Below are positions 27,526-34,160 of a DNA stretch of 37,472 nucleotides, piece by piece. Origin of the DNA: Prochlorococcus sp. AG-676-M04 (lineage in GTDB: Bacteria > Cyanobacteriota > Cyanobacteriia > PCC-6307 > Cyanobiaceae). The notes beneath the pieces were generated by a model. It was not told where the DNA came from and made no database searches. It saw only the letters and a list, made by a program, of their open reading frames with translations. The stretch lies in the NCBI GenBank assembly GCA_003210895.1, contig QCUB01000010.1, forward strand, positions 1-37,472, written 5' to 3'. Positions within the stretch are counted from its first letter, which is position 1. Each line of letters starts with the position of its first letter. The translations under genes and the position numbers were made by a program.

Positions 27526-28149
27526 CTATAAAGATACTTTCCTGTAAATTACTGAAAAGTTATTAGCTGGCATGCAAATAAGCTCCTCTTTAATAAAACC
27601 ATTCTTAATAGCTTCTTCACTAACTTCTCCAAGATCTCGAAGACCCCAAAATTTATTTTGCATTTTTAATGAACTATCAAATAAATTATTACTTTGACTT
27701 ATTTGCTTATTACCAATTTTAAATGGTCCATATAACATCACAAATTGTCCCTTTTTTAATAATTTCCCAGACTCCTTAAATAGTAATTTTGTACAGTTCC
27801 AGGAGGCTATATGAATCATATTTATAGATATAATCCCCTGAAGAGAAATCAGCAATTCTGATGGAATTGCCCAAGGCGTTTTCTCCACATCAATATCTAA
27901 AGGTTGAGGCATTTTTAAATTTAAGTCTTCATGATCAATCCAAGAACTAATGCTATTTCTATGAATTAGTTCAGGATCACTTGATTGCCAAGTTATTTCT
28001 GGGAAACATTTTTGAAATACAACCCCATGCTCTCCACTACCGCTGCCAATTTCTAAAATAACACCTCTTTTTAGTTGAATTTTTGATAATACTTCTCCTA
28101 TAGACTGTCTATTTCTCTCTGTAGCAGGAAAAAAAAGTCTATTATCCAA
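27526..28149 (-). CDS. DUF938 family SAM-dependent methyltransferase
   Basis: 207 residues. FFPATERNRQSIGEVLSKI at the start and VILEIGSGSGEHGVVFQKCF (SAM motif I, G-x-G-x-G) are typical of DUF938, as are WQSSDPE, IISINMIHIASWNCTKLLFK and FVMLYGPFKIGN. Methyl acceptor unknown. The downstream edge is AT-rich with a possible weak terminator before 27526. The 54-residue membrane protein gene at 28158 lies just upstream on the same strand. Confidence 0.88.
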   Translation of the reverse strand: MDNRLFFPATERNRQSIGEVLSKIQLKRGVILEIGSGSGEHGVVFQKCFPEITWQSSDPELIHRNSISSWIDHEDLNLKMPQPLDIDVEKTPWAIPSELLISLQGIISINMIHIASWNCTKLLFKESGKLLKKGQFVMLYGPFKIGNKQISQSNNLFDSSLKMQNKFWGLRDLGEVSEEAIKNGFIKEELICMPANNFSVIYRKVSL

Positions 28150-28157
28150 AATAGTTT

Positions 28158-28322
28158 TTATTTAGCTCCTCTCAATTTTGGAGCTTTATAAAACATTACT
28201 TTGAAGCTAAAGAATAATATTAAAAAACTTAGAATTGGTAAAAAATAAAGTATCAAATCAGAACTGAATAAGCTCGGAATGCTGGCAAAAATCAAATGCA
28301 TATAGTAAGTAGTAAATGACAT
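28158..28322 (-). CDS. Membrane microprotein, 54 aa
   Basis: MSFTTYYMHLIFASIPSLFS, SDLILYFLPILSFLILFFSF, then KVMFYKAPKLRGAK. One or two hydrophobic helices with a basic tail. It is eight bases before the DUF938 methyltransferase start, so probably co-transcribed with it. Unknown function. Confidence 0.6.
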   Translation of the reverse strand: MSFTTYYMHLIFASIPSLFSSDLILYFLPILSFLILFFSFKVMFYKAPKLRGAK

Positions 28323-28474
28323 AAGTGTTAATTTTTTTATTTAATTTATTAATAGCAATAATTTTCGAAAATAAAAAGAGTTTTTTTCCTATTTTTAAGA
28401 ATATAAATTTAATTAAATATTAGACTGCTCTAAGATTTATTCTTAAAGTAATTTAAAAATAAATAACATTACAT

Positions 28475-28620
28475 AAAAAGAGTCAGCCTGTATCCCTACT
28501 AGCTGACTCTTTAAATAATATTAGTTAAAATTCATCATAAGTGAGGATATTTTTTTTAATAAATTTCATTAAGTAGCTCATGTTTATTTATAAATAAATT
28601 AAATACCATGAATCTATTAA
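28475..28620 (-). ncRNA. Candidate small RNA A, terminator homologous to RNA B
   Basis: On the minus strand a stem AAAGAGTCAGC / GCTGACTCTTT with loop TAGTAGGGATACAG ends in TTTTT at 28475-28512, with no annotated minus-strand gene to end. TATATTCAAG, a possible -10 and start region, lies at 28624-28633. The hairpin aligns without gaps to the one at 34122-34153. An 18-codon frame at 28525-28581 (MSYLMKFIKKNILTYDEF) lies inside and could be translated. The 5' end is an estimate. Confidence 0.55.
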
Positions 28621-28864
28621 TTTCTTGAATATAAATTATAAGAGCCAACTCTAATCACAGTCATAGAGGTAATTATGATATAATTGTATTATCTCAGGTA
28701 GAGATAAGAGTAATTAATACTGACCTAGCCAAATAATTTCTTAAAAGAATCTGATTTATCTCGGTCAAAACTTTCAAATAAATTATTTACTTTGATCTAA
28801 TTATTAGATTAAACATAAAAGCTAATACCCCTTATCAAACCTGAATTTATTATATATCCAACCA

Positions 28865-30902: not shown

Positions 30903-31109
30903 TTATTTAGAATTTTTATTGCCTAAAATTGTTTGATCTTCTTTTTGTCTTTTCTTAAAAATTGAAGGTTTATATTTAATAAACTCGCCATTTTTGGTTG
31001 CCAAAAGCTGAGCTTGTGAAAGTTTTCTAGCTTTTTTAATTTTATCTTTAATAAGTATTAGATGATTAATGACCTTTGCAATAATGGAAATCCCGTTCCC
31101 TATTCCCAC
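30903..31109 (-). CDS. Basic small protein, 68 aa (GTG start)
   Basis: HLILIKDKIKKARKLSQAQL then LATKNGEFIKYKPSIFKKRQ and a Lys/Asn tail. Strongly basic and helical at first. The GTG at 31109 is the only start that keeps the hydrophobic N-terminal turn; no family recognised. Confidence 0.5.
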   Translation of the reverse strand: MGIGNGISIIAKVINHLILIKDKIKKARKLSQAQLLATKNGEFIKYKPSIFKKRQKEDQTILGNKNSK

Positions 31110-31252
31110 TTGATGCGTCCAGATATAACAAGGATGAACGTATATTTACGAAACACTTTTCAAACTAAATTGGGTTTTTAATCAGTATAAAAAATCTGTC
31201 AGAATAATAAAAATCATATTAAAGTTAAATCAAATAATTGGAGGGAAATTAA

Positions 31253-34028: not shown

Positions 34029-34056
34029 TAAGTAATTTTACTTACTATTATATATT
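34029..34056 (+). promoter_or_regulatory. Candidate promoter of small RNA B
   Basis: A TAAGTAA-TT-TTACTTA palindrome (34029-34044) then TATATT at 34051-34056, a plausible -10 box. TATATTCAAG is also found before small RNA A. Confidence 0.4.
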
Positions 34057-34061
34057 CAAGG

Positions 34062-34160
34062 CATTTAGGAAGTGCTTAGCTGGTTGAACTCAGTCAATCT
34101 GAATTTAACTTATTCGTCATGAGAGTTTGCTGGTAGGGATATAAGCAAACTCTTTTTTTT
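34062..34160 (+). ncRNA. Candidate small RNA B with strong terminator
   Basis: About 100 bases ending in a hairpin AGAGTTTGCT / AGCAAACTCT (ten perfect pairs, loop GGTAGGGATATA, 34122-34153) and T8. No open frame longer than a few codons. It is divergent from hli operon 2. The hairpin is homologous to that of small RNA A: both 32 bases, with two stem pairs changed on both sides. The 5' end is inferred from the -10 box. Confidence 0.65.

Follow-up and report, generated by a model that had tools for sequence, protein, structure and literature searches.

Yfr20 is an 89-nt RNA with its own transcription start that goes up from dark to high light and lies near hli11 and hli12, according to the passages of PMC2518516 available to us. 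The same passages describe Yfr11 and Yfr16 of MED4 as paralogous sRNAs that are 74% identical, and report few protein regulators in Prochlorococcus. In Synechocystis, ApcZ is a 3'-end-derived sRNA from the apc operon that inhibits ocp translation (passages of PMC8136909). No partner or target of Yfr20 is named in the passages we have on this RNA, and the hairpin family reported here is not described in the available passages on Yfr20, on MED4 sRNAs and start sites, on hli terminators and stem-loops, or on psbD small RNAs, nor in those of PMC2518516, PMC2897979, PMC7368042, PMC5069720, PMC3898218, PMC5607370, and PMC8136909. We argue tentatively, as our leading candidate among several, that one member of this family, copy A, stands alone as a minimal RNA gene whose product would be a 37-40-nt hairpin RNA that competes for the partner of the family loop.

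The stretch of DNA analyzed here (the window) is the 37,472-nt contig QCUB01000010.1 of Prochlorococcus sp. AG-676-M04. It contains two related hairpins, which an earlier note on this DNA had proposed to be a two-copy small RNA family near hli genes:

28479-28510, minus strand: core of the copy A hairpin, with a 10-pair stem, an A.A mismatch, and a GUA[GGGA]UAC loop, from fold and covariation
28477-28512, minus strand: extended copy A hairpin, 36 bases, the core plus two more A-U pairs
34122-34153, plus strand: copy B, the terminal hairpin of Yfr20
34059-34147, plus strand: sRNA Yfr20 (RF02367), 98.1 bits over all 89 positions against a gathering score of 44
34114-34123, plus strand: linker TCGTCATGAG, which leads into the terminal hairpin of Yfr20 and which copy A lacks

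When 32 bases of each copy are set against each other without gaps, 25 are identical, as the earlier note had it, and both of the two-sided stem changes that it pointed out are present (pair 6/27, C-G to U-A; pair 7/26, A-U to U-A). The 9-mer GTAGGGATA occurs at two sites in the window, copies A and B only, a count that 3 of 100 shuffles reach. Copy A folds with -19.6 kcal/mol (z of -6.4) and copy B with a z of -4.1, and in each case 0 of 200 shuffles are as good. As RNA, the copy A loop reads GUA[GGGA]UAC closed over one purine mismatch.

Copy B is the known high-light-induced sRNA Yfr20, which we find in 148 of 200 genus genomes at E <= 0.001, 140 of them above the cut-off. Copy A reaches the gathering score of no Rfam family. 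Its best match to Yfr20 is 16.9 bits and lies on the opposite strand; since its own strand has no Yfr20 match and the opposite-strand score is noise, copy A was ruled out as a second Yfr20. Ten further weak Rfam matches at this place (SNORD19B, mir-5984, and others), all under their gathering scores, were dropped. The Yfr20 model finds neither of the two Yfr20-type 5' hairpins upstream of copy A, where the body is poorly conserved. Elsewhere in the same region, a Glutamine-II riboswitch aptamer (RF01704) is present at 31084-31143 on the minus strand with 42.8 bits (gathering score of 33). On another contig of the window's genome, a third hairpin follows an hli gene and a 36-aa ORF; it is identical to copy A at 31 of 32 positions, as compared with 25 of 32 for copy B, and it has the linker CGTCATGAG, as in Yfr20 and unlike copy A. 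A structured RNA family near hli is thus supported by 103 sense matches in 81 sources and by covariation, but not as a pair of two new sRNAs, because copy B is the published Yfr20 and the third copy in the same genome is closer to A.

The members of the family were collected in several ways. A search with the neighboring hli protein returned 80 loci, nearly all from Prochlorococcus, and the exact loop word was found 75 times in 82 records, 59 times with at least 7 pairs around it, a few of those 59 by chance. Two models were used, R1 of copy A and R2 of the hairpin. At E <= 1, a threshold at which it also takes in other family hairpins, R1 matches 213 of 266 genus genomes and 81 of the 87 of good quality. 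R2 has a match in all 24 genomes of a further set (23 at least 90% complete, plus the draft of the window itself), and copy A is present by position in 22 of these, G204 and G206 being those without it. When the search was widened to the taxonomic family, R2 matched 12 of 201 genomes, 10 of the window's own genus and two of other genera (34.1 and 28.1 bits), and R1 matched 7 of 151, one of them of another genus (31.9 bits). A spread beyond the genus is not supported, since the other-genus matches are few and weak and the one of 34.1 bits (L213) has a different loop. As far as searched, the hairpin family appears confined to the window's genus, which we take to be the high-light clade; the HLI and HLII labels of loci are likewise our reading of similarity. 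A phage origin was also considered and rejected: 18 stretches of viral contigs (4 and 14) match the sequence pattern exactly, 12 of them in loci of at least 50% G+C, and none has paired stem arms by eye.

In the 81 sources, R2 gives 108 matches, of which 103 are sense and 5 are antisense reads of A copies. The earlier note had named such a search as its check, and the search returns more copies with paired changes and a common loop. The sense matches divide, by a loose form of the linker, into 46 without it (A-type) and 57 with it; exact TCGTCATGAG is present in 0 of the 46 and in 52 of the 57, and the GGGAUAC loop core of the Yfr20 terminal hairpin is kept in 46 of 46 and 51 of 57, respectively. 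GTAGGGATAC is likewise kept in all 46 linker-less matches, although the model that found them was partly trained on copies picked by an exact loop word. Among 30 linker-bearing copies that lack TAGGGAT, mostly of the Yfr20 type, 28 keep GGGATAC; the loop sequence is therefore kept even where the GUA[GGGA]UAC fold is lost. Nearly all family members have the loop core, and all but A have the linker.

The stems vary in a compensatory manner. Of the 13 pairs in an alignment of 31 hand-picked copies (A2), 8 have both-sided changes, and the double-change cells number 45 where shuffling gives 13.3 on average; an alignment of the 108 model-fitted matches (A3, 5 antisense rows included) again has such changes in 8 pairs, with 166 cells against 48.8. 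A copies alone give 4 pairs and 10 cells against 1.5 in shuffles. All of these double-change counts are inflated by the relatedness of the sequences. On this comparative evidence, the hairpin structure is under selection.

The positions of the hairpins were read in the MED4-like genome G015 (1,657,990 bases, 40,000 of them read N), which has Yfr20 at the published MED4 coordinates. R2 marks five places in it. Besides Yfr20 and copy A, these are a pair of identical hairpins that follow duplicated hli clusters and a single one after a different hli gene. A script lists 210 terminator-like hairpins in this genome, and the five of them that carry TAGGGAT or TAGTGAT are its five R2 matches. The set of hairpins with the family loop is more than chance. 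The listed ORFs of the two hli clusters (L198 and L199) agree; the last in both is a 59-aa ORF (...SRLDMALVLKIGRLMD...), and the hairpin after it is the same. Across seven genomes, 18 places were inspected: 10 lie behind an hli operon, 3 are Yfr20, 2 are copy A, 2 are weak and unrelated, and 1 lies 287 nt past the nearest ORF of an hli region. All 10 hli operons have the linker (altered in G204), and 8-10 nt separate the stop of their last ORF from the matched 56-nt stretch.

The earlier note had allowed that the hairpins might prove to be ordinary terminators of other genes, and this fits part of the family, because those 10 of 18 places are hairpins behind hli operons. Copy A has the form of an intrinsic terminator, a G+C-containing hairpin followed by a U-run, but does not share the position at a gene or operon end. 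No plausible gene among the listed ORFs stops at either A or B, in agreement with the earlier note; the nearest same-strand frame upstream of A in the window is a 50-aa TTG frame that ends at 28809, antisense to a 44-aa ORF. Over 83 distinct A-type loci, same-strand ATG or GTG frames that stop within 50 nt of the stem are at least 30 aa long in 31, at least 40 aa in 14, and at least 60 aa in 1. In 52 of the 83, a frame of 3 to 42 codons begins with an ATG inside the upstream block and ends 9-119 nt before the stem. As the length and end of this frame are unconserved and the ATG is missing in the other 31, a small gene ending at copy A was set aside, and the stretch was taken as non-coding. In many loci (e.g., L024-L081), a semi-palindromic TGCTACATATATGTGTCGAAATATACC-like block, which opens short frames of unconserved length, lies about 130-150 nt upstream of A; it is absent from the window and its closest relatives and is possibly a regulator site. 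Could copy A nevertheless be an ordinary terminator or insulator that arrived between hli and p54 as a copy of an hli operon end and makes no RNA of its own? The 31 of 32 identity to the hli 3' hairpin of the same genome and membership in a family of which part stands behind operons speak for it, but A has no conserved same-strand gene end upstream, and the kept loop, block, and spacing described next would be superfluous for a plain terminator. We consider this origin improbable.

The region around copy A contains three elements that suggested to us a transcription unit of its own:

28539-28548, minus strand: block ATCCTCACTT (family form ATCCTCATTT) in the -35 position, with 17 nt between CCTCAC and TAATAT
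28518-28523, minus strand: TAATAT, a -10-like hexamer, 7 nt before the first stem base
28475-28479, minus strand: U-run after the copy A hairpin, the 3' end predicted from sequence

The arrangement ATCCTCATTT-15 nt-TAATAT is nearly fixed. Of 83 distinct A-type loci, 82 have the start of the block 25 nt ahead of TAATAT, in a count from which 18 viral loci were removed and for which the block offset was fixed at 25; the exception (L184) is the weak match of G206 and is not itself an A copy. A broader count that includes chance matches of viral contigs gives an offset of 25 in 73 of 94, of 15 in 8, and elsewhere in 4, with no block in 9. The distance from the end of TAATAT to the first stem base is 6 or 7 nt in 78 loci (5 nt in 1, 6 in 52, 7 in 26, 8 in 3). 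Three items stand out as conserved when 49 A copies are aligned, namely the hairpin, TAATAT, and ATCCTCATTT (the loop is invariant there because the copies were chosen by an exact 15-mer), and conservation is low from TAATAT to the stem and in the upstream body. We read the block and TAATAT as -35 and -10 of a putative promoter with a start at the stem base. The mapped start of Yfr20 in MED4, taken from the passages of PMC2518516, lies the same 6 nt after TATAAT if TATAAT is read as its -10. A generic promoter scan gives 5 hits in the region, no more than shuffles do (5.5); the ATCCTCATTT/TAATAT pair is not among them, but a more distal ATGACT-18-TATAAT is, at 28664-28635, upstream of copy A.

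With these elements, the promoter would start transcription at the hairpin base (about 28510-28511), and transcription would pass the hairpin and stop at the U-run near 28474, likely giving an RNA of 37-40 nt, unusually short for a terminated transcript. In MED4, the predicted start and end would lie at about 1333801 and 1333765 on the minus strand. Such an RNA could act as a decoy whose loop competes for the partner of the hli and Yfr20 hairpins, and this partner may be a protein or an mRNA. At least 5 T within the 8 bases past the 3' arm are present in 72 of 79 distinct A loci, and the U-run is poor in 7 of the 79. A generic terminator scan with loops limited to 3-8 lists none at copy A. In the passages of PMC2518516, the MED4 ncRNA table (Yfr8-Yfr21) lists none at its place.

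A 145-base transcript that would start farther upstream had also been proposed, from TATATTCAAG, which precedes both hairpins in the window (28624-28633, minus strand; 34051-34060, plus strand). The word is indeed there, in the start region of Yfr20 for copy B and about 110 nt before the hairpin for copy A, but it is found exactly in 1 of 83 distinct A-type loci, the window itself, and in 4 of 83 if one mismatch is allowed. TATATTCAAG as a promoter common to A and B was ruled out on that count. TGAATTTTAACT, also noted before both hairpins, is present in the window but conserved in only 2 of the 83. Conservation does not support the 145-base transcript: strong conservation sets in only at 28548, and the conserved part resembles a promoter more than RNA.

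An RNA longer than the hairpin is nonetheless conceivable, with copy A as the terminator of an sRNA of about 110-155 nt that would carry AUCCUCAUUU as a single-stranded seed, followed by an AU-rich stretch. Seed, AU-rich stretch, and terminator make up the anatomy of many sRNAs, which counts for this proposal, as does the promoter-like ATGACT-18-TATAAT. The ATCCTCATTT block has TCCTCA in common with ACUCCUCACAC, the conserved Yfr1/Yfr10 motif given in the passages of PMC2518516, and UCCUCA in the RNA would point the same way. On the other side, the distance from block to TAATAT is all but invariant, which an RNA linker would not need, the upstream body is poorly conserved, and complements of the block are unremarkable at start regions. 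We regard the longer sRNA as unlikely.

Downstream of copy A, on the same strand, lie a small gene and its neighbor:

28348-28363, minus strand: conserved AATTATTGCTATTAAT block upstream of p54, likely p54's own promoter
28158-28322, minus strand: p54, a 54-aa ORF and the next gene downstream of A, for which Pfam and NCBIfam give no match at E <= 0.01
27526-28149, minus strand: DUF938 (PF06080) protein, the gene after p54, 189.3 bits

The p54 product is conserved and hydrophobic and has no family match. The constancy of this neighborhood brings in the second reading that we keep alive, although we judge it doubtful: copy A may be the 5'-terminal hairpin of a p54-DUF938 mRNA that starts at the hairpin and usually reads through the U-run, the hairpin protecting the 5' end or acting as an attenuator controlled by its loop. 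p54 follows in the same orientation at every one of the 90 A loci (79 distinct sequences), and 84 of the 90 also have a DUF938 match; the poor U-run of 7 of 79 copies fits read-through; and A and p54 co-occur in the genomes checked, in that five genus genomes without an R1 match are also without a p54 match, as are six genomes of other genera. The co-loss may, on the other hand, reflect the loss of one island segment or missing assembly. Moreover, p54 has its own conserved block, with AATAATTGCTATTAAT conserved just before the gene, and its start lies 96-287 nt from the copy A loop, across a variable and less conserved filler between the hairpin and that block. Divergent p54 homologues in G204 and G206 have no hairpin and no TAGGGAT within their 3.1-kb loci, and G204 retains AATAATTGCTA. 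Because p54 has its own block at a variable distance and homologues exist without the hairpin, copy A is separable from p54, and we place the leader reading second to a stand-alone RNA.

Possible targets were sought among 1815 start regions of G015. They show no enrichment of loop-complementary 7-9-mers, and the loop was dropped as an antisense seed against start regions for that reason; the block AUCCUCAUU as a seed also has unremarkable complements there. The 10-mer complement of TCGTCATGAG is found at psbD alone among the 1815. Upstream of it, psbD also has GTATCCC, which complements the loop core and occurs in 2 of the 1815 in all. The MED4 Yfr20 linker is a perfect 12-nt complement of the psbD start, with the loop-core site, noticed only after the psbD leader was seen, 15-17 nt further upstream, an order that would let a single antisense molecule pair with both sites. 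GTATCCC stands 15-17 nt before TCTCATGACGATCGC in all 32 genus psbD starts that were read (L317, which is the G015 leader, and L318-L348; 30 of 58 matched genomes plus 2 others). Of all 1815 regions, psbD comes first in duplex energy with each of three MED4 linkers and in cofold with the 3' domain of the MED4 Yfr20; with two hli copies it comes 10th and 61st in cofold. For three Yfr20 copies (MED4, L082, L087), the psbD cofold beats 300 of 300 background regions; with the Yfr20 of the window, 4 of 300 do as well as psbD, and with nine further copies between 33 and 178 of 300 do. No pairing with psbD is predicted for copy A, which places it at rank 1185 of 1815.

Controls for the psbD matches vary. 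Permutations that keep the composition and fix CATGA reproduce both matches in 2 of 5000, and independent random genome words do so in 59 of 5000; a further control, at 246 of 5000, is flawed in that the pieces can match themselves. An equal duplex energy is obtained with 4 of 15 shuffled seeds, and shuffled linkers give a match of at least 12 in 22 of 400 and a loop match as well in 5 of 400. TCTCATGACGA is present at 7 of 14 pattern-recognized psbD starts of other genera (27 loci), where the hairpin family was not found. As a candidate target predicted by base pairing, psbD is convincing only for three Yfr20 copies including that of MED4, moderate for that of the window, and no better than background by cofold for nine others. 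Since the pairing differs in this way among Yfr20 copies and is absent for A, we claim for copy A only a free, loop-competing hairpin RNA, with modest confidence. A fuller circuit of high-light Prochlorococcus is a long shot: hli mRNA 3' ends and Yfr20 would pair with the psbD leader at two sites, the linker with the start codon and the loop with an upstream GUAUCCC, while copy A would serve as a tiny, promoter-driven, loop-only antagonist. If it were true, making photoprotective proteins would shut down the production of new D2 of photosystem II, and copy A would tune this circuit.

That one hairpin family is found at a solo locus, in Yfr20, and at the ends of hli operons points to a common RNA-level factor in the light-stress response of a very abundant phototroph, and the analysis makes exact predictions, a start at the hairpin base of copy A and psbD pairing for Yfr20. 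Among known systems, ApcZ, as described in the passages of PMC8136909, resembles the linker-bearing copies, which would likewise be the 3' ends of operons for photoprotection or light harvesting and may have a target in the photosynthetic apparatus; for the hairpin family, the psbD target is a prediction, and one that does not apply to copy A. Yfr11 and Yfr16 (PMC2518516, passages available) are likewise two related RNAs per genome, but A and Yfr20 have only the terminal hairpin in common. With the intrinsic terminators of hli operons, copy A shares stem, loop, and U-run; they have a linker and an ORF stop just before the matched stretch, and copy A has neither. Compared with Yfr20, which is also near hli and about 1.4-5.6 kb away in the genomes where positions were compared, copy A lacks the 5' hairpins and the TCGTCATGAG linker and has a different, putative promoter, but its hairpin has the same loop core and a compensatory stem.
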